From: Halorussus caseinilyticus
GTDB lineage: Archaea; Halobacteriota; Halobacteria; Halobacteriales; Haladaptataceae
Reading direction: 5' to 3'
DNA length: 64,000 bases
Assembly: GCF_029338395.1 (NCBI RefSeq)
Contig: NZ_CP119809.1
Location: 2,604,001 to 2,668,000 of the forward strand
The notes under the pieces were generated by a model. That model made no database searches, was not told the DNA's origin, and saw only the letters and a program-made list of their open reading frames with translations. The position numbers and the translations under genes were made by a program. Shown here in pieces: positions 3,450-31,818 of this stretch. Each line of letters starts with the position of its first letter. The first letter of the stretch is position 1.

Positions 3450-3900
3450 TCGTTCGCTACGTACCACGACAGCGACCGCAGGAACCGGAGAGACCGTATC
3501 TTCCTCGAAAGTCCCCATCCGCTCGCTCTGCACTGCTACTGTCGCCGCCAGAACCGCGACGATGAAGACCTCGAAAGCCCCCGCCCGCTCGCTACGCAAC
3601 AGCACCGCAACCGCAGGAAAGACGACGGCAAAGAAGTCCTCGAAAGCCCCCACCCGCTCGCGGTCGCTGACCGACGTATCCTCGCTCGCTTCGCTCGCTC
3701 GGATAGAGGTCGGTCAGACGACCACGATAAACGCGAGCGGGCGGCCCCTTTATCCCACCCCGGCGGCTGGTCGGCCGGGCGTTCGCCGGTGGTTGGTCGG
3801 CCGGGCGTTCGCCGGTGGTTGGTCGGCCGGGCGTTCGCCGGTGGTTGGTCGGCCGGGCGTTCGCCGGTGGTTGGTCGGCCGGGCGTTCGCCGACGGCTGT
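3450..3900 (+). repeat. Dispersed element family B, copy 1
   Basis: Non-coding element filling most of the gap between RdgB and the ArsR-type regulator. From the left: imperfect units around CTCGAAAGCCCCCGCCCGCTC; a hairpin at 3662-3723 with arms GGTCGC-TGACCGAC and GTCGGTCA-GACGACC; the conserved GAGCGGGCGGCCCCTTTATC at 3735-3754; then five 26-bp tandem units. Copy 2 lies at 12400-12955 in the same orientation and copy 3 at 20480-20680 inverted. Short frames reading KAPARS-like peptides occur here but come from the repeat. The remainder of the gap (3900-3993) is an AT-rich island. Confidence 0.75.
3765..3894 (+). repeat. 26-bp tandem repeat, five units
   Basis: Five head-to-tail units of 26 bp with consensus GGTTGGTCGGCCGGGCGTTC followed by GCCGGT, starting at 3765, 3791, 3817, 3843 and 3869. 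Units 2-4 are identical; unit 1 has GGCTGG and unit 5 ends with CGA. There are no spacers, so this is not CRISPR. It is the right end of family B copy 1. Two diverged units occupy the same place in copy 2 (about 12910-12955). Confidence 0.9.
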
Positions 3901-9078: not shown

Positions 9079-9205
9079 CCGAGAGCGTCCGAACCCAGTG
9101 ATTTCCACCGCGAGCGAACGAACGTGAGCGCGGACCAAGCGACGACCGGAAGGAGCGAAGCGACTGGCGGGGGGACCGCCGTGTTTTTCATCAACGTTTT
9201 CCGAA

Positions 9206-12076: not shown

Positions 12077-12352
12077 ATGGCAGACAGACCCAGCACTGGC
12101 GAACTGTTCGGCGTTCCGTACAACTTCGAGCGGCCGAGCATCGGGCGGATGCTCTCGGCGTACTGGAAACCCGACGAGGGGATGCTGGTAGACAAGCCCT
12201 TCGGCATCGGCTACACGCTCAACCTCGCCAACTGGCGGTCGTGGATTGTGCTGGCGGTCGCTGGCGCACTGCTCTGGCACGAGCGCAAGGGCGAACGCGA
12301 GCAGATGGCCGCCGAGGAAGGCCCGGTCGAAGTCGTCGTAGACGACGACTGA
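12077..12352 (+). CDS. DUF5808-like haloarchaeal protein
   Basis: A 91-residue protein with a conserved-looking soluble N-terminus (GELFGVPYNFERPSIGRML), then GIGYTLNLANWRSW and one hydrophobic segment (about residues 55-67, WIVLAVAGALLW), ending in an acidic tail. This matches my memory of the DUF5808 family of small archaeal membrane-associated proteins of unknown role. It has a good leaderless promoter and stands alone between two repeat elements. The function is unknown. Confidence 0.75.
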   Translation: MADRPSTGELFGVPYNFERPSIGRMLSAYWKPDEGMLVDKPFGIGYTLNLANWRSWIVLAVAGALLWHERKGEREQMAAEEGPVEVVVDDD

Positions 12353-12399: not shown

Positions 12400-12955
12400 G
12401 GTACGTTCGTTCGCTACGTGACCGTACTGCCGAAATCGGGACGAACAACGTTCAGAAAGCTCTCGCTCGCTACGTCTCGTGACAGCTACCGGGGAAACCG
12501 CCACAATGAACGTTTCAAAAGCCCCCTCCTGCTCGCTACGAACCGCTACCGCGACCACAGAAACTGCTAGGAAGACGGCCCAGAAAGTCCCCGCCCGCTC
12601 GCTACGCAACAGCACCGCAACCGCAGGAAGGACGACGGCAAAGAAGTCCTCGAAAGCCCCCGCCCGCTCGCCACCGGAAGACGTTCCTGCTCACTGCGTT
12701 GTCGCCGAAAATCGGAGATTTTCGGGATGACGAGAGCGTCGCTCTCGAACCACGCGGGCGTGCGACTTCCGAGGTCTGCGTCGCTTCGCTCCGCAGACGG
12801 TCGCTCAGCGACATATCTTCCGCTCACTCCGTTCGCTCCAGATAGGGGTCGCTGAGACGACCACGGGCCTTCGGCCCGCGAGCGGGCGGCCCCTTTATCC
12901 ATCCCCGTCGGTTGGTCGGCCGAGCGTTCGCCGGTGGGTGGTCGGCCGGGCGCGT
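12400..12955 (+). repeat. Dispersed element family B, copy 2
   Basis: The longest copy of family B, filling the gap between the DUF5808-like gene and TruA. The left part has imperfect units around CCCGCTCGCTACGCAACAGC and AAGAAGTCCTCGAAAGCCCC. A GC-rich insert (about 12700-12790) with GAGAGCG-type palindromes follows. The hairpin at 12798-12862 has arms GGTCGC-TCAGCGAC and GTCGCTGA-GACGACC. Then come GAGCGGGCGGCCCCTTTATC and two GGTTGGTCGGCC-type units. Reading frames here give only KAPARS-type repeats and are not genes. Confidence 0.75.
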
Positions 12956-13036
12956 CCGGGTCGGTCTGCTGACCACCTCTACGCCCCGGTTCCCGCTTCC
13001 GCCCTTTTAAATACCTCCGCGTCCGACCACGAACCG

Positions 13037-13837
13037 ATGCGGGCGTTCCGAGTCGCCTACGACGGCCGACCGTTCCACGGTTTCCAGCGCCAGCCGGACG
13101 TGCCCACCGTCGAGGACGCCATCTTCGACGCGCTCCGGGCGCTCGGCGTCGCCGACGGCAAGCCGGAGGGCTACGCCGCGGCGGGGCGGACCGACGCCGG
13201 GGTGTCGGCGGTGGCCCAGACCGTCGCCTTCGAGTGCCCCGACTGGTTGACCCCCGCCGCGCTGAACAGCGAACTCCCGGCGAGCGTCCGGGCGTGGGCG
13301 AGCGCCGACGCGCCCGCGGACTTCCACGCGACCCACCACGCCGAGTCGCGGGCCTACGTCTACCACTGCTACGCGCCCGACGCCGACCTCGCGCGCGCCG
13401 GGGACGCACTTGCGCGACTCCGCGGCGAGAACGACTTCCACAACCTGACGCCCGACGACGAGAACACCGTCAGAGACCTGCGCGCCGACGTTCGGCGCGA
13501 CGGCGACTACCTCGTCTTCGAACTCCGCGCGGGCGGGTTCGTCCGCGAGATGGTCCGGCGGGTGGTCTCGCTGGTCCGAGCGGTGGCGACCGGCCACGCG
13601 GAACCCGCGAAAGTCGAGCGCGTACTCGGACCGGCGCAAATCGACGGTCCCGAGGGCGTCGCGCCCGCCCCGGCCTACCCCCTCGTGCTGGTTGACGCCG
13701 CGTACCCGACGCTGGCGTTTTCGACGGACGAGGAGGCCGCCGCCCGGACCCGCGAGGTGTTCGCGGAGTTGCGCTCGGAGCGAGCGACCGGCGCGCGGGT
13801 CGCCGCCGAAGTCGCCGAGCGCGTCGAGTCGCCGTAA
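13037..13837 (+). CDS. truA: tRNA pseudouridine synthase A
   Basis: A 266-residue TruA-family enzyme that makes pseudouridine at tRNA positions 38-40. The catalytic Asp is Asp53 in AAAGRTDAGVSAVAQ. The N-terminal MRAFRVAYDGRPFHGFQRQP and the C-terminal RAGGFVREMVRRVVSLVRAV are characteristic. The ATG at 13037 was chosen because homology begins there; longer open sequence upstream is part of family B. The C-terminal tail after residue 240 is helical and less conserved. Confidence 0.94.
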   Translation: MRAFRVAYDGRPFHGFQRQPDVPTVEDAIFDALRALGVADGKPEGYAAAGRTDAGVSAVAQTVAFECPDWLTPAALNSELPASVRAWASADAPADFHATHHAESRAYVYHCYAPDADLARAGDALARLRGENDFHNLTPDDENTVRDLRADVRRDGDYLVFELRAGGFVREMVRRVVSLVRAVATGHAEPAKVERVLGPAQIDGPEGVAPAPAYPLVLVDAAYPTLAFSTDEEAAARTREVFAELRSERATGARVAAEVAERVESP

Positions 13838-13964
13838 CGAGGAATTTCGGTGCCGGGACACGGACTGTTCGTTCCACTCGCCGACCCCCTCGAAATGGTA
13901 AGTGCCGTTTAAATCGTGTGCTAGCAATCAACGTTATTATCCCGCGCTCCGAAATCGGGAACGG

Positions 13965-14018
13965 CGGTAGCGAGTGCAATCCCATGGCACCACCATTTCG
14001 GATACTGCACTCCTACCG
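13965..14018. terminator. Imperfect hairpin between convergent genes
   Basis: CGGTAGCGAGTGCA (13965-13978) pairs with TGCACTCCTACCG (14006-14018), with one bulged C. It lies between the convergent TruA and M28 peptidase genes, where a two-way transcription end is expected. Functional assignment is by position only. Confidence 0.35.
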
Positions 14019-14041
14019 TCGTTTTGCGTCGAGTAATCCGT

Positions 14042-15361
14042 TCAGTCCCACCCGTCGGGCCAGATTCCGGCCGCCTTCATGCCTTCTTCGTAGTCGCCCG
14101 AGCGCAGATTCCCCGCGACAGACTCCGCGCTCGGCCGCGGTATCTCGTCGGTCCGCGCCACCTCTCGGACCAGTAACGCCGTCAGCATCGCGTGTTCGCG
14201 CAGGTTCCGGTCGTCAACCTTGTCGCGGGTGTCGGCGTGAGTGTGGCCCCACCCGCGCCCTCGCTCGCCGCTTTCGCTGTGGAGTTGGAGCGCGGGCACC
14301 CCGCGCTCGAGAAACGGCCAGTGGTCGCTGAACGGGTGGACCTGCTCGCGGACCGCGATTGGTTGGTTCGCCTCGTCCGCGACCGACGCCACGAGTTCCT
14401 CCATCGTCTCCGAGCCGTGAGTGTGAGCGCGCAGGTTTCGGAACCGGCCAGCGCCGTCCACGTTCACGACCGCGCGGACCGAACCGAGGTCAAGTCGCTC
14501 GGCGAGGGTCTCCGCACCGAGCAGTCCGGTCTCCTCGCATCCGACGCCCGCGACCCGGACCGTCGCGTCGAGGTCCATCCGCGCGAGGAGGTGGGCCGCC
14601 GCGACGACCACGGTGATGCCACACCCGTTGTCGAGCGCGCCCTCCGCGATGTCGTGGGCGTCGTGGTGGCCGACGACGAGGATTTCGTCGTCCGTCTCGG
14701 GCCCAAGTCGGCCGCGGGCGTTGTGACTCGTGCCGGGCGTCGTCTCGGCGTCCACCCGGAGGACGGCCCGCCCTCCCCGGTCGGCGTAGTCGGTCAACCA
14801 GTCGCCGGTCTCCAGACTGACGCCCACGCCCGGAACCGCGGCCTCCCGGTCGAACCGGAGCGCCCCGGTCGGGGGCAGTTGGCCGGGCTTGTGGTTCCGG
14901 AAGACGAACGCCGCCGCACCCGCGGCGGCGGCGTGACCGAACTTCTCCATCCGGTGGATGAACCGCGACCCCTTCGGTGTCGTCGTGGACGCGACCACGA
15001 TTTTCCCCTCCACGTCCATCTCGTCGAGTTCCGCTGGCGTGCCGTGGCCCGCGTCCACGAGTTCGCCCCGAACCTCGCCCGGCGGGGAGTACGGGAGTGC
15101 GATGGTCTCGAACGACCGTTCGACGGGGTGAGTGACGGCGAGTTCGGCCTCGTCGCGCGTCCATCGGTTCATCTCGAAGGACTCGACCGAAACCTCTCGC
15201 GCACCCGCGCGCTCGAACCCCTCGACGACGAGTTCGGCCGCCCGGCGCTCGCCCGGCGACCCGCCCATCCGGTCGCCGATTTCGGTCAGTCTCGTCAGGA
15301 ACTCCCACGGGTAGTCGTCGGTCCACGCCGCCGCGAGCGCGGCCGCGGTCTCTGAGTCCAT
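14042..15361 (-). CDS. M28-family aminopeptidase-like metallopeptidase
   Basis: A 439-residue zinc peptidase of the M28 family. Metal-binding motifs appear in order: GHHDAHD (about 231-237), ALDNGCG (242-248), CEETG (275-279), VDGAG (302-306) and a late His in GWGHTHADTRDKVD. A protease-associated-type insert lies before the catalytic core (residues 100-200). There is no clear signal peptide, so a cytoplasmic aminopeptidase is likely. The ATG at 15361 gives MDSETAAALAAAW; a start nine codons upstream is possible but less plausible. Confidence 0.88.
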   Translation of the reverse strand: MDSETAAALAAAWTDDYPWEFLTRLTEIGDRMGGSPGERRAAELVVEGFERAGAREVSVESFEMNRWTRDEAELAVTHPVERSFETIALPYSPPGEVRGELVDAGHGTPAELDEMDVEGKIVVASTTTPKGSRFIHRMEKFGHAAAAGAAAFVFRNHKPGQLPPTGALRFDREAAVPGVGVSLETGDWLTDYADRGGRAVLRVDAETTPGTSHNARGRLGPETDDEILVVGHHDAHDIAEGALDNGCGITVVVAAAHLLARMDLDATVRVAGVGCEETGLLGAETLAERLDLGSVRAVVNVDGAGRFRNLRAHTHGSETMEELVASVADEANQPIAVREQVHPFSDHWPFLERGVPALQLHSESGERGRGWGHTHADTRDKVDDRNLREHAMLTALLVREVARTDEIPRPSAESVAGNLRSGDYEEGMKAAGIWPDGWD

Positions 15362-15512
15362 GGCCGGGTGTGAGTCGCCGACGGTCAAAAACCCACGCCC
15401 GGAACTGCCGACTGCCGCCGACCCTTGCGGACTCCCGACGACCCTCCCGGGTTCCCCGAACCCGACTTCCGAATGACAAAGGCTTACAGTCGGTCTTTCC
15501 TAACCAAACGAT

Positions 15513-17306
15513 ATGAGTTCCGTTCCCGAACGGTCGGAGATAGACGACGAGTACAAGTGGGATTTGGAGAGCATATACGCGACCGACGACGAGTGGGAGC
15601 AGTCGTACGAAGACGCCCAACAGCGACTCGAGGAACTGGCCGCCTACGAGGGGCGGGCCACCGAGGACGGCGAGACGCTACTGGAAGTCCTCGAACTCCG
15701 CGACGAGTTGCTCCGGCAGGTCGAGATGGTGGTCAACTACGCCCGGATGCGGAAAGACGAGAACACCGCCGACCAGCAGTATCAGGCCCTCTCGTCCCGC
15801 GCGATGGCGCTCGGGTCGCAACTCGACAGCGCGAGTAGCTTCCTCGAACCCGAGATTCAGGACCTCGACCGCGACGAACTCGACGCGATGATAGAGGCGA
15901 CCGACGGACTGGAGACCTACGACCACTACCTCCACGACGTACTCCGCGTGGCAGACCACACGCGCTCTTCGGAAGTCGAGAACGTGCTGGCCGAACTCGG
16001 CGAGGTGACGCGGGCCTCCGACGACATCTACAACATGCTGATGAACTCCGACGTGGAGTTCCCGACGGTCGAGAAACCAGACGGCGAGTCGGTCGAGATT
16101 ACCCAGAGCAACCTCACGACCCTCCTGAAGAATCCGGACCGCGAGTTCCGCCAGACGGTCTACGAGAGCTTCTTCGGCACGCTCGGTAACTTCCACAACA
16201 CCATCGGCACCGCCTTCGAGAAGACGGTGAAGTCCGACGTGAAACTCGCCCGGATACACGACTACGACACCGCGCGGGAGGCCGCACTCGACGGTCCTAA
16301 CGTCCCGGCCGAGGTGTACGACAACCTCGTGGGGACGGTCCGGGACAACCTCGACAAACTCCACCGCCACGCCGAACTCAAGCGAAAGAGCCTCGGCGTC
16401 GAGGAACTCCGGATGTGGGACCTCTACATGCCCATGACCGAGACCGAGACACCCGACGTGGAGTACGAACAGGCCCGCGAGTACGTCGTGGAGGCGCTCG
16501 GTGCCCTCGGCGACGACTACCAGAACCGCGTGCAGGAGGGACTCGACTCCCGGTGGGTGGACGTGTACGAGACCGAGAACAAGCGGTCGGGCGCGTACAG
16601 CAGCGGCACCTACGACACCCAGCCGTTCATCTTGATGAACTGGCAAGACGACATCTCCTCGATGTTCACGCTGGCCCACGAACTCGGCCACTCGCTACAC
16701 TCCCAACTCGCCGACGAGACCCAACCGTACGTCTACAGCAACTACGAGATTTTCGTGGCCGAAGTCGCCAGCACGGTCAACGAGGCGCTTTTGACCCGCC
16801 ACCTGCTCGACACCGTAGAGGACCCCGAGTTCCGACGCCACGTCCTCAACGAGTATCTGGAGCGGTTCCGCTCGACGCTCTACCGCCAGACCCTGTTCGC
16901 CGACTTCGAACACCAGACCCACGAACTGGTCGAAGAGGGCGAGGCGCTCACTCCCGAAGCGGCCGACGAAATCTACGGCGACCTCAAGTCGGAGTTCTAC
17001 GAACCCGCGGTGATGGACGACCACATCGCTCGCGAGTGGGCACGGATTCCGCACTTCTTCAACTACACCTACTACGTCTACCAGTACAGCACCGGCATCA
17101 GCGCCGCCGTCGCGCTCGCCGACGAGATTCTCGAATCCGACGGCGAAGTCGCCGACGACTACCTCGAATTCCTCCGAAGCGGTTCGCGGGAGTACCCGCT
17201 CGAACTCCTCGAAACCGCCGGAGTCGATATGTCCTCGCCCGACCCGATTCAGCGTGCGCTCGACGTGTACGACGACCACCTCGACGAGATGGAAGAACTC
17301 GTCTGA
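15513..17306 (+). CDS. pepF: Oligoendopeptidase F (M3B metallopeptidase)
   Basis: A 597-residue cytoplasmic zinc oligopeptidase of family M3B. The catalytic motif is HELGH at 389-393 (TLAHELGHSLHSQLA), with the third ligand in NYEIFVAEVASTVNE about 25 residues later. The N-terminal KWDLESIYATDDEWE and the Tyr-rich YYVYQYSTGISAA near the end are typical. Length matches bacterial PepF (about 600). It degrades peptides of roughly 7-17 residues released by proteasome-like enzymes. It has its own promoter region and stands as a single gene. Confidence 0.93.
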   Translation: MSSVPERSEIDDEYKWDLESIYATDDEWEQSYEDAQQRLEELAAYEGRATEDGETLLEVLELRDELLRQVEMVVNYARMRKDENTADQQYQALSSRAMALGSQLDSASSFLEPEIQDLDRDELDAMIEATDGLETYDHYLHDVLRVADHTRSSEVENVLAELGEVTRASDDIYNMLMNSDVEFPTVEKPDGESVEITQSNLTTLLKNPDREFRQTVYESFFGTLGNFHNTIGTAFEKTVKSDVKLARIHDYDTAREAALDGPNVPAEVYDNLVGTVRDNLDKLHRHAELKRKSLGVEELRMWDLYMPMTETETPDVEYEQAREYVVEALGALGDDYQNRVQEGLDSRWVDVYETENKRSGAYSSGTYDTQPFILMNWQDDISSMFTLAHELGHSLHSQLADETQPYVYSNYEIFVAEVASTVNEALLTRHLLDTVEDPEFRRHVLNEYLERFRSTLYRQTLFADFEHQTHELVEEGEALTPEAADEIYGDLKSEFYEPAVMDDHIAREWARIPHFFNYTYYVYQYSTGISAAVALADEILESDGEVADDYLEFLRSGSREYPLELLETAGVDMSSPDPIQRALDVYDDHLDEMEELV

Positions 17307-17390
17307 GACCCCGCCCGAATCTGACGATTCGTTTTCACTCTCTGAGAACGCGGGGTTCGGTTTATCCGACGGGATTGTGTACGCGGTCGT

Positions 17391-19100
17391 ATGGAACGCA
17401 ACCCCCTCGCCGCGTACGAAGACGCGCTGTGGTGGTCGATGGACCGCCTCGGCGTCACCGAGTCGGTCGAACGCAAGGTACTGGCGGCCGTCGTCATCCA
17501 GTTCGCCATCTCCGTCTCGCAGGCCGTCCTGCCGTTTCTGGTCTCGGGTACCGCACGGGTCGCTCTCACGGTCGGACTGCTGACCGCGGCGGCCGTCGCG
17601 TTCGCTAACACCGTCTTGGTCGCCCGCCGGGACATCACCGAACCCATCGCGGCTTTAGACCGGGCGGCCGCCGCCATCGCGGGCGGGGACTTAGACGCGC
17701 CGGTCCCCGAGACCGACCAAGACGACGAAATCGGGCATCTCGTGGCTTCGTTCTCCGATATGCGGGCCTACCTTCGGGTGGTCGCCGAGCAAGCCGCCGC
17801 CCTCTCCCGACAGGAGTTCGAAGACCCCGTACTGGACGAGAACGTGCCCGGCGAGTTCGGCGCGTCGCTCGACCGGATGGCCGATAGCTTGCGCCAGTAC
17901 ACCGCCGACCTCGAAGCCACGACCGAACAACTCGAAGCGACGACCGCGGACTTAGAACGCCGGTCGGAGAACTTGGGCCGACTCGTGGAGGCGTTCGGCG
18001 AGGCGACCGAACGCGCCGAGAGCGGCGACCTGACCGCGACTATCGACCCGGAGGTCGCCGACGAGAACCTCCACGAGGAAGTCGTGGACAACTACAACGC
18101 CCTGCTCTCGACGCTCGCGGACGCCGTGGGCGAACTCGCCGACTTCGCCGACGAGGTGGCGACCGCGAGCGAACGGGCCGACACCGACCTCCGGGAGGTC
18201 AGCGAGGCCAGCGACGAGGTGGCCGGAGCGGTCGCCGAGATTTCGGAGGGCGCGGCCCGCCAGACCGAACGACTCAACGAGGCGGTGGCCGAGATGAACA
18301 CCCTGTCTGCGACCATCGAGGAAATCGCGGCGTCGGCCGACGAGGTGGCCGACACCGCCGGGACCGCGACCGACCGCGCGCGCTCGGGTCGGGACGCCGC
18401 GCGGGAGGCCGCCGAGGAACTCGACCGGGTGGAGGACGGCATCGACCGGACCGCCGAGGCGGTCGAGGAGTTGGTGGCCGACATCGCCGAAATCGACGAG
18501 GTGGTCTCGTTCATCGACGAGGTTGCGACCGAGACCAACCTGCTGGCGCTGAACGCCTCGGTCGAGGCGGCCCGCGCGGGCGAACGCGGCGACGGGTTCG
18601 GCGTGGTCGCCGACGAGGTGAAGAACCTCGCGGAAGACACCGGGGAGGCCGCCGACGACATCACCGAGCGCATCGAGACCATACAGGACAACTCCGAGCG
18701 GACGCTGGCCGACGTGCGCGAGACCCGCGAGCAGGTCTCCCGGAGCGTCGAAACCGTCGAAGACGCGCTCGGCGACTTCGAGGACATCGCCGACGTGGTG
18801 GGCGAAGTGGACGAGAGCGTCCGGGAGATTAGCGACGCGACCGACCAGCAGGCGATGTCGGCCGACGACGTGGTGTCGGTGGTCGAGGAGGTGGCGGCCA
18901 TCAGCGAGGAGACCACCGCCGAGTCCGAGACGGTGGCCGCGGCGACCGACCAACAGGCCACGTCGCTGTCGGGCGTCTCCGAGCAGTTGGCGTCGTTGGC
19001 GTCGCAAGCCGACGAACTCGACGCGCTACTCGGCGAGTTCCGCCTTCCCGACGAGGGGTCGGCGACCGAACCGGTTCGCCACTCGGCCAGCGCGGACTGA
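17391..19100 (+). CDS. Haloarchaeal methyl-accepting transducer (Htr/MCP)
   Basis: A 569-residue membrane-bound sensory transducer. Two hydrophobic helices at about residues 27-47 and 52-70 are separated by a very short loop, so there is no extracellular sensor domain. HAMP modules follow (about 75-130 and near 205-260), then a long coiled-coil signalling domain with the conserved tip IDEVATETNLLALNASVEAA and FGVVADEVKNLAEDT. It would signal to CheA/CheW. Lack of a periplasmic domain suggests sensing of a membrane or cytoplasmic signal. The input is unknown and no che genes are nearby. Confidence 0.9.
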   Translation: MERNPLAAYEDALWWSMDRLGVTESVERKVLAAVVIQFAISVSQAVLPFLVSGTARVALTVGLLTAAAVAFANTVLVARRDITEPIAALDRAAAAIAGGDLDAPVPETDQDDEIGHLVASFSDMRAYLRVVAEQAAALSRQEFEDPVLDENVPGEFGASLDRMADSLRQYTADLEATTEQLEATTADLERRSENLGRLVEAFGEATERAESGDLTATIDPEVADENLHEEVVDNYNALLSTLADAVGELADFADEVATASERADTDLREVSEASDEVAGAVAEISEGAARQTERLNEAVAEMNTLSATIEEIAASADEVADTAGTATDRARSGRDAAREAAEELDRVEDGIDRTAEAVEELVADIAEIDEVVSFIDEVATETNLLALNASVEAARAGERGDGFGVVADEVKNLAEDTGEAADDITERIETIQDNSERTLADVRETREQVSRSVETVEDALGDFEDIADVVGEVDESVREISDATDQQAMSADDVVSVVEEVAAISEETTAESETVAAATDQQATSLSGVSEQLASLASQADELDALLGEFRLPDEGSATEPVRHSASAD

Positions 19101-19148
19101 CGGCGGCGAAAGATTTTTTTGCGGGAAAACGTCCGAGACCCAAAGGCA

Positions 19149-19156
19149 CTTTTAAG
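19149..19156 (+). promoter_or_regulatory. TATA-like promoter of PAN
   Basis: CTTTTAAG lies 28-35 bases before the ATG at 19184 in otherwise GC-rich DNA, the usual place of a haloarchaeal TATA box. Confidence 0.6.
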
Positions 19157-19183
19157 CTGGTCCTCTAAGAATCAGTAACAACG

Positions 19184-20422
19184 ATGTCGCGTAGCCCACC
19201 CCTCCCCGACCAACCGACACTGGAACTCGACCCCGAAATGACAGACAGGGAGCGGCTTGCGGCGCTCCGGGAACACTTCGCCGAAATCGTGGACGTGAAC
19301 GCCACCCTCGAAGAGCGCCTCGGCGACGCCCGCGAACGCCGCACGAACCTGCGAGAGGAAGTAGACCAACTCGAACGCGAGAACGAGACCCTGAAAACCA
19401 CGTCGCTGTACGTCGCCACGGCCGAGGAACTGACCGAGGACGGAATCGTCATCAAACAGCACGGCAACAACCAAGAGGTGCTGACCGAAGTCTCGCCCCA
19501 ACTCCGCGACGAAATCGAGTCGGGCGACCGCGTGGCAGTCAACGACTCCTTTACGGTCCAGACGGTGCTGGAGACCGAGAAGGACGCTCGCGCGCAGGCG
19601 ATGGAAGTGGACGAATCGCCCGAAGTGACCTACGACGAAATCGGCGGTCTCCACGAACAGACCCGCGAGGTCCGCGAAGCGGTCGAGGAGCCGCTCGAAA
19701 ACCCCGAGCAGTTCGAGACGGTGGGTATCGAACCCCCGAGCGGCGTCCTGCTTCACGGCCCGCCGGGGACCGGCAAGACGATGCTGGCGAAGGCCGTCGC
19801 CAACCACACCGACGCCACCTTCATCAAGATGGCCGGGTCGGAACTCGTCCAGAAGTTCATCGGGGAGGGTGCGAAACTCGTCCGCGACCTCTTCGAGTTG
19901 GCGAGTCAACGCGAGCCAGCTATCGTCTTCATCGACGAGATAGACGCCGTGGCCTCCAAGCGCACCGACTCGAAGACTTCCGGTGACGCCGAAGTCCAGC
20001 GCACGATGATGCAACTTCTCTCGGAGATGGACGGCTTCGAAGAGCGCGGCGAGATTCGCATCATGGCCGCGACCAACCGCTTCGACATGCTGGACCGCGC
20101 CATCCTCCGGCCGGGCCGGTTCGACCGCCTCATCGAGGTTCCCAACCCCGACGAGGAGGCCCGGCGCAAGATTCTGGACATCCACACCCGCGACATGAAG
20201 ATAGCCGACGACGTGGACTTCGAGGACCTCGCCGACCGGACGGAAGGCAAGAGCGGCGCGGACATCGAGAGTCTGACGACCGAAGCGGGCATGTTCGCCA
20301 TCCGCGACGGCCGGACGGAGGTCCGACAGGACGACTTCGCGGACGCCCTCGACAAACTGGAAGCCGACGACGACGAGTCCGGCATCGTCACGAAGGGGTC
20401 GCTTCCGAGCTACGCGTACTGA
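19184..20422 (+). CDS. pan: Proteasome-activating nucleotidase (PAN)
   Basis: A 412-residue AAA ATPase that unfolds proteins for the 20S proteasome. Residues 25-75 form the N-terminal coiled coil and 76-135 the OB-fold ring. The ATPase core has Walker A GPPGTGKT (192-199), Walker B IVFIDEID (247-254) and the second region of homology AATNRFDMLDRAILRPGR. The C-terminus is LPSYAY. The Tyr lies last and third from last rather than in the classical penultimate place of the HbYX gate-opening motif, so docking may differ or pair with another PAN paralogue. Confidence 0.95.
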   Translation: MSRSPPLPDQPTLELDPEMTDRERLAALREHFAEIVDVNATLEERLGDARERRTNLREEVDQLERENETLKTTSLYVATAEELTEDGIVIKQHGNNQEVLTEVSPQLRDEIESGDRVAVNDSFTVQTVLETEKDARAQAMEVDESPEVTYDEIGGLHEQTREVREAVEEPLENPEQFETVGIEPPSGVLLHGPPGTGKTMLAKAVANHTDATFIKMAGSELVQKFIGEGAKLVRDLFELASQREPAIVFIDEIDAVASKRTDSKTSGDAEVQRTMMQLLSEMDGFEERGEIRIMAATNRFDMLDRAILRPGRFDRLIEVPNPDEEARRKILDIHTRDMKIADDVDFEDLADRTEGKSGADIESLTTEAGMFAIRDGRTEVRQDDFADALDKLEADDDESGIVTKGSLPSYAY

Positions 20423-20479
20423 GACGGGGTTTCGGGCTTCGGGGCTTTTTCTCTCGGTTTCGGACACGCTTCGCACGGC

Positions 20480-20680
20480 CAGCGACGGCACTCGGCGCGA
20501 CCAACCACCGGCGAACGCTCGCCCGACCAACGGACAGAACGCGCTCGGTGCCACAAACCACGGCAAACGTCCGGCCGACCAACCGACGGGGCGAGATAGA
20601 GGGGCCGCCCATTCGCGGGTCACGCGAGCGGTGCAACCGTGAAAGCGAGTGTGACCCGCGACCGGACGGGGGCTTTCTGA
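20480..20680 (-). repeat. Dispersed element family B, copy 3 (inverted)
   Basis: Read on the minus strand this copy has AAAGCCCCCGTCCGGTCGCG, a 10-bp hairpin (20614-20623 with 20651-20660; arms CGCGGGTCAC and GTGACCCGCG), TGGGCGGCCCCTCTATC, and GTCGGTTGGTCGGCCGGACG-type units. It lacks the long left array of copies 1 and 2. The hairpin arms differ from those of the other copies but occupy the same position. It follows PAN by about 60 bases. Confidence 0.65.
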
Positions 20681-31684: not shown

Positions 31685-31818
31685 GCGCCGGTGGTAAGAA
31701 AACGCGCCGCGTTTTCGAGCCTCGGCGTACGAGTGAGTGCAACGAACGCAGTGCGCCGGTGTCTTGCCGAACGAAGTGAGGCAAGGCTCGGCGCGTAAGC
31801 GAACGAAGTGAGCGCAAC
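31685..31818 (+). repeat. Two tandem minihelix-like relics in front of tRNA-Gly
   Basis: Two units precede the tRNA with nearly the same period. Unit 1 (31685-31727) starts GCGCCGGTGGT and ends CTCGGCG; unit 2 (31753-31794) starts GCGCCGGTGTC and ends CTCGGCGC. The ends match the tRNA acceptor arms, and each unit encloses a small hairpin (AAAACGCG with CGCGTTTT; CTTGCC with GGCAAG) in place of the D, anticodon and T arms. Spacers of 24-25 bases separate the units from each other and from the tRNA at 31819. Confidence 0.6.

Follow-up and report, generated by a model that had tools for sequence, protein, structure and literature searches.

A dispersed hairpin repeat family of Halobacteria whose loops suggest a role as folded single-stranded DNA

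Results

A hairpin first seen in three copies belongs to a large, covarying family

Three hairpins in a 64,000-nucleotide stretch of the Halorussus caseinilyticus genome (positions 2604001-2668000 of a 4.39-Mb genome, hereafter the window) belong to a dispersed family of roughly 110-120 hairpin repeats in this salt-loving archaeon, and the family was found in about a third of the sampled genera of its class. The sequences of the hairpins change while the pairing is kept, and their loops suggest that a folded single DNA strand, rather than an RNA, is what selection preserves. The relatives of this genome by gene identity are Halorussus species. The initial annotation of the window described three copies with shared left and right motifs, repeated units on the right, and differing but complementary arms. 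This observation is confirmed, and it understates the size of the family. The features of the three copies are as follows.

3536-3641, plus strand: copy 1, left-hand repeated units (GAAAGCCCCCGCCCGCTCGCTACG..., about 70 bp each), which begin with the same sequence as the left arm of the hairpin
3642-3768, plus strand: copy 1, hairpin element, GAAAG-CCC-[12-bp outer stem 3650-3661/3733-3744]-module M2-CCC-CTTTATC plus the conserved CCCACCC edge; covariance-model match of 133.9 bits
3662-3723, plus strand: copy 1, inner module M2, GGTCGCT[GACCGAC]GTATCC...GGATAGAG[GTCGGTC]AGACGACC, with arms of the variable type
3765-3895, plus strand: copy 1, five tandem tail units of ~26 bp (GGTTGGTCGGCCGGGCGTTCGCCGGT)
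12652-12899, plus strand: copy 2, hairpin element with nested hairpins inserted between the outer left arm and M2; covariance-model match at 12779-12913, 82.4 bits
12672-12798, plus strand: copy 2, nested module M4 (CACCGGAAGAC...GCAGAC), itself holding M5 (about 12702-12753), delimited by comparison with copies that lack it
12799-12862, plus strand: copy 2, M2 with arms CAGCGAC/GTCGCTG
12865-12877, plus strand: copy 2, small hairpin GGGCC-TTC-GGCCC, on the minus strand a C-GAA-G triloop
12900-12960, plus strand: copy 2, right edge and tail units (GTCGGTTGGTCGGCCGAGCG...)
20581-20677, minus strand: copy 3, short variant in which M2 is absent and the hairpin GGGTCAC/GTGACCC belongs to another module; covariance-model match of 42.7 bits
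20490-20580, minus strand: copy 3, tail units
12993-20463: segment inverted relative to Halorussus and Haladaptatus relatives, with copies 2 and 3, in opposite orientation, at its two ends

The arms of copies 1 and 2 (TGACCGAC/GTCGGTCA and TCAGCGAC/GTCGCTGA) occupy the same positions of the same module. Copy 3 differs in that its GGGTCAC/GTGACCC hairpin is a different module, seen as an extra nested hairpin in other copies (e.g., loci L034, L041, and L043), and in that it lacks the module shared by copies 1 and 2. Only the comparison of copies 1 and 2 is therefore compensatory change in the strict sense.

In the orientation in which the element was first read, a full element consists of repeated ~70-bp left units that begin GAAAGCCCCCGCCCGCTCGC, the sequence GAAAG-CCC, a 12-bp outer stem CCGCCCGCTCGC/GCGAGCGGGCGG, an inner module GGTCGCT-[7 variable]-A-TATC-loop-GATA-GNGG-[7 variable]-AG-one bulged base-CGACC, often a small hairpin GGGCC-TNC-GGCCC, and then CCC-CTTTATC-CC(A)CCC followed by tandem ~26-bp tail units. 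Minimal copies keep only the outer stem (L021, L032, L045), whereas other copies hold further hairpins inserted at the base or in the loop of the inner module (L031, L039, which is window copy 2, L049, L073, L034, L043). Five copies (L058, L059, L065, L074, L077) share the ends of the family but have an unrelated core between outer arms that have themselves changed together, GCGCGCTCGG/CCGAGCGCGC. In other genera, another hairpin pair, similar to module M4, is inserted between repeats of CAGTCCC downstream of the hairpin (L218, L220, L222). The ~70-bp left units at 3536-3641 can be read on the complementary strand as an open frame with hydrophobic stretches (like GAFEDFFAVVLPAVAVLLRSERA) whose pattern recurs in other copies, which could reflect either coding or chance.

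To determine the size of the family, the genome was searched for the right-hand motif GGGCGGCCCCTTTATC with up to two mismatches, which occurs 82 times against 8 for the reversed control. Copies were collected by search and from stretches of the genome, and a covariance model built from the family finds 117 places in the genome at E<=0.01 and 114 at E<=0.001. To test whether pairing is maintained, we examined 43 full copies of this genome. Of the cells, 98.1% pair, against 90.9% in shuffles and 37-45% when the partner is slid by 1-3 columns, and 14 pairs and 102 cells have changes on both sides (0/500 shuffles). In 54 copies from other genomes, 96.6% of cells pair, and 25 pairs and 216 cells have double-sided change (0/500 shuffles). 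It should be noted that related sequences can beat shuffles without structure; however, the slid controls keep relatedness and fall to 31-45% paired.

Distribution and genomic context

At E<=0.001, the covariance model finds 0-147 copies in each of 18 Halorussus genomes. At E<=1e-6, hits are present in 89 of 391 sampled Halobacteria genomes, representing 31 of 86 genera; at most eight candidates were scored per genome in this survey and thus the counts are floors. All 72 copies of the Halorussus caseinilyticus genome that were checked lie between genes, as called with a simple codon-usage gene caller. In the orientation of the element, 28 are in (-,-) gaps, 15 in (+,+) gaps, 17 in divergent gaps, and 10 in convergent gaps, and no orientation rule relative to genes is apparent. 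No replichore orientation bias was found (runs test z -0.63). No common flanking gene was found in this genome, nor in other genera apart from the Haloarcula plasmid gene described below. No copy was found in a phage collection, and the exact core pattern was not found in viral contigs. Searches against Rfam returned no match at or above the gathering score. No TATA-like box lies within 60 nt of either end in any of 66 copies. Four C-runs of at least three on the plus strand, which would permit a G-quadruplex on the minus strand, occur in 32/66 own and 30/53 other copies and so are not required in that form.

The loops carry a strand-biased signature

To distinguish a folded RNA from a folded DNA, we compared wobble-type pairs and terminal loops on the two strands. 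Wobble-type pairs are not consistently concentrated on either strand. In own copies, G.T pairs number 20 versus 10 A.C pairs, or 8 versus 10 without the stem-closing pair. In other genomes the counts are 34 versus 35, or 13 versus 35 without the closing pair, which if anything leans to the minus strand, although the counts are not independent events. In contrast, the loops differ by strand. Read on the minus strand, apical loops are chains of 2-5 bp helices that vary and pair, are separated by GA/GA, and are closed by GAA, GCA, or GGA; some copies close with GTCA, GACA, or GCCA, which are GNNA. GNA/GNNA loops number 60 on the minus strand against 8 on the plus strand in own copies and 27 against 2 elsewhere. 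The parser that produced these counts also reports chance centers ("neither" 88 and 46), so they are a strand comparison and not a census. In a strict parse of 45 apical loops, 31 were parsed, 29 of those with GNA loops, 14 did not fit, and 65 of 66 internal 2x2 loops were GA/GA. GNA/GNNA loops with two G-C pairs are described as extraordinarily stable DNA mini-hairpins by Hirao and colleagues (PMC4686876), and GA/GA between a pyrimidine and a purine forms sheared pairs in DNA. In addition, a GTGG tag lies on the minus strand, 1-4 nt from the AAAG helix, in 45 of 72 own and 35 of 49 other copies. The loop type is not limited to this family: three GA-X-GNA-X'-GA mini-hairpin motifs lie at window positions 31735-31811, just upstream of tRNA-Gly (31819), and others lie at 9153 and 11700.

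Hairpins are constrained while modules and whole elements turn over

To estimate constraint, two Halorussus genomes (G002 and G016) that are mostly 92-95% identical over shared loci were compared. At five shared sites, the orthologous hairpins are identical at 631/657 positions (96.0%), other intergenic DNA at 2249/2592 positions (86.8%), and coding DNA at 95.5% (Fisher p = 2e-13 for hairpins against intergenic DNA). Gene conversion among copies could imitate part of this constraint. Turnover was also observed. Within one shared element, a 51-bp hairpin module is present in one species (L279) and absent in the other (L272). At another site, G002 keeps both ends but lacks the hairpin, and a nearby 48-bp hairpin pair bounded by CGCC repeats is also absent (L105/L288). 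At a third site, about 250 bp including the element are replaced (L268/L291), such that the element is missing at the same site in L291. Presence or absence does not by itself say which state is ancestral. A site upstream of truA is empty in all relatives but too diverged to give insertion ends, and at whole-element insertions no clean target duplication was seen, with relatives too diverged at most sites.

REARRANGEMENT

The segment matching window positions 12993-20463 (7.5 kb) lies in the opposite orientation relative to its neighbors in H. ruber, H. salinisoli, H. aquaticus, H. marinus, and a Halorussus-like MAG. Window copies 2 and 3, which are inverted to each other, sit at the two breakpoints. 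One ancestral site (between the gene ends at 12352 and 20422) holds an element in three relatives, each with a different module content, and none in two. The simplest account, which is an inference, is recombination between inverted copies in the lineage of the window. Elsewhere, two inverted element copies (L129:10442-10638 and 12893-13089; 197 nt at 90%) flank a usp-like gene (uspA) and aroA.

Haloarcula megaplasmids carry a single copy at a fixed place

Haloarcula megaplasmids carry one copy each at a fixed place, a noncoding gap followed by a gene annotated SOSS complex subunit B (SOSS-B), for which the OB-fold match is weak (E 0.004). Between distant plasmids, most of the upstream gap is unrecognizable while the outer stem, the 5' arm, and the CCCCTTTCAGTCCCACC edge are nearly invariant. 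The gene has its own TATA-like TTTATATA sequence. In pNG500, a T4SS coupling protein (PF10412) and a relaxase-like protein (PF03432) lie 3-6 kb downstream. About 80 bp from the hairpin, a second conserved noncoding block of about 150 bp (L235:1458-1610, L256:205-343, L257:2727-2902) matches noncoding DNA of the small plasmids pNB101 and pHLAJ5II and is possibly a replication site. This context resembles in part the bacterial leading regions in which Frpo sites precede ssb (PMC11541004), which is a lead and not a proof.

Discussion

The family, the covariation, and the constraint are solid. With moderate confidence, only somewhat better than even, our current hypothesis is that this is a dispersed, REP-like family of intergenic elements of Halobacteria whose conserved form is a long hairpin in one DNA strand, the minus strand relative to the orientation used above: 5' GTGG-(1-4 nt)-AAAG-GGG-outer stem-[branched inner stems capped by GNA/GNNA loops, with GA/GA mismatch pairs]-outer stem-GGG-CTTT. 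The analysis itself establishes the family and its variation in copy number, the covariation, a divergence slower than that of neighboring intergenic DNA, the presence and absence of modules and elements, and the strand bias of the loop sequences. The remainder is inferred, namely that the strand works as DNA and not RNA, that it folds when single-stranded (in replication, repair, conjugation, or natural DNA transfer) or as a cruciform, that a protein acting in trans binds it through the GTGG tag, the unpaired G-runs, and the fixed sequences of the inner stem, and that this protein, or replication slippage and recombination at hairpins, spreads the element and swaps its modules. No protein has been shown to bind the element, the stable-loop argument relies on published DNA thermodynamics, and minus-strand RNA with the same loops is not excluded. 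The single near-invariant copy on Haloarcula megaplasmids suggests that the ancestral role was a cis-acting single-strand site of plasmids, in which case the chromosomal copies would be dispersed relatives.

The interpretation offered in the initial annotation is partly supported. Its proposals of selection on a folded form and of dispersal are both supported by the covariation, the slower divergence, the variable copy number, and the present/absent alleles. It left open whether RNA or DNA is folded, and the small-RNA alternative is weakened here. Its suggestion of repeated replacement of the arm is also partly true, as whole hairpin modules are gained or lost inside elements. That the element is transposable is not proven, as no mobilizing enzyme and no confirmed target duplication were found.

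Several alternatives remain possible, though each appears unlikely. A family of structured noncoding RNAs, stand-alone or within transcripts, would account for the strong covariation, the fixed unpaired sequence, the conserved bulge, and the G.U-type closing pair GGTCG/CGACT on the plus strand in 12 of 43 copies. However, the absence of TATA-like boxes near 66 copies, the use of all gene orientations including 17 divergent gaps, the lack of a consistent wobble asymmetry, and the lack of an Rfam match argue against it, and the frequent terminal loops are GNA triloops with no RNA-type GNRA tetraloop seen among the listed loops. We consider it equally doubtful that this is a true REP/REPIN or MITE, a non-autonomous element moved by an IS200/IS605-like Y1 (RAYT) or other transposase. 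The high copy number, extragenic location, GTGG-type 5' tag, some close pairs in opposite orientation, and empty sites are consistent with this reading. However, a search for the Y1 transposase (PF01797) found none in this genome, which holds about 117 copies, although control genomes were positive, and the element has no common neighboring gene and no demonstrated target duplication. A search for the Y2 transposase of IS91-type HUH transposons (PF04986) gave nothing but is uninformative, because no control genome was positive.

A single-strand initiation or promoter site (Frpo/ssi or sso analog) of conjugative or rolling-circle plasmids, with chromosomal copies derived from it, is likewise only a tentative possibility. 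It is favored by the near-invariant Haloarcula plasmid copies, their position upstream of the putative OB-fold gene, the nearby conjugation-type genes in pNG500, and the block shared with pNB101 and pHLAJ5II. Against it, no transfer origin is mapped, the OB-fold match is weak, the gene has its own TATA-like sequence, the relaxase and coupling-protein genes point the other way from F, and over 100 chromosomal copies need another reason. Any priming or promotion of synthesis from the single strand is inferred by analogy. Least likely, in our view, is that pairing is a mutational by-product of quasi-palindromes corrected by template switching and of copies homogenized by gene conversion, with no selected function. 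The changes are indeed Watson-Crick to Watson-Crick with few intermediates, and the inverted copies flanking uspA-aroA are 90% alike. However, correction should erase the bulge, the CCC/CCC internal loop, and the GA/GA mismatches, yet these stay while the helices between them change, and the hairpins diverge at the rate of coding DNA. A more far-reaching reading, which we regard as improbable but not excluded, is that Halobacteria carry a class-wide family of single-stranded-DNA sites, folded by DNA-specific mini-hairpin loops, that began as plasmid single-strand initiation or establishment sites and colonized chromosomes, where modules keep inserting into one another's loops and the copies drive inversions.

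Among described systems, bacterial REP, BIME, and REPIN elements (GTAG- or GTGG-tagged and RAYT-associated) share the many extragenic palindromic copies, the species-to-species variation, the 5' tetranucleotide tag next to a hairpin (here in part of the copies), and the opposite-orientation pairs. REPs are defined as 20-40 bp palindromes with a GTAG or CGTC (or GTGG) tag at one end (PMC3733652, PMC2817692), whereas the present element is about 110-250 bp, branched, and archaeal, has nested modules and compensatory arm variation over many genera, and shows no clear preference for gene 3' ends. It cannot be filed as a REP because the associated transposase was looked for and not found. Frpo/ssi single-stranded promoters and plasmid sso sites are folded single-stranded DNA with mismatches, and the Haloarcula plasmid copies lie in a partly similar context; however, the present family has no bacterial -35/-10 and is a chromosomal multicopy family. 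Prokaryotic MITEs are also small, intergenic, noncoding, dispersed, and polymorphic. The ends of the present element pair (AAAG/CTTT), but these ends have so far not been matched to the terminal inverted repeats of a known insertion sequence. Integron attC sites have conserved ends with variable but paired arms and are recognized by fold in other systems, but here there are no cassette arrays and no integron integrase context, and the elements are intergenic singletons.

This is a widespread structured repeat family in archaea that we could not match to any catalog or paper among those we were able to consult. If the DNA reading holds, it would be an example of compensatory evolution kept at the level of folded single-stranded DNA across many genera, which is rarely documented, and a handle on how haloarchaea process single-stranded DNA in replication, transfer, and repair. 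The copies may also mark places where chromosomes rearrange.
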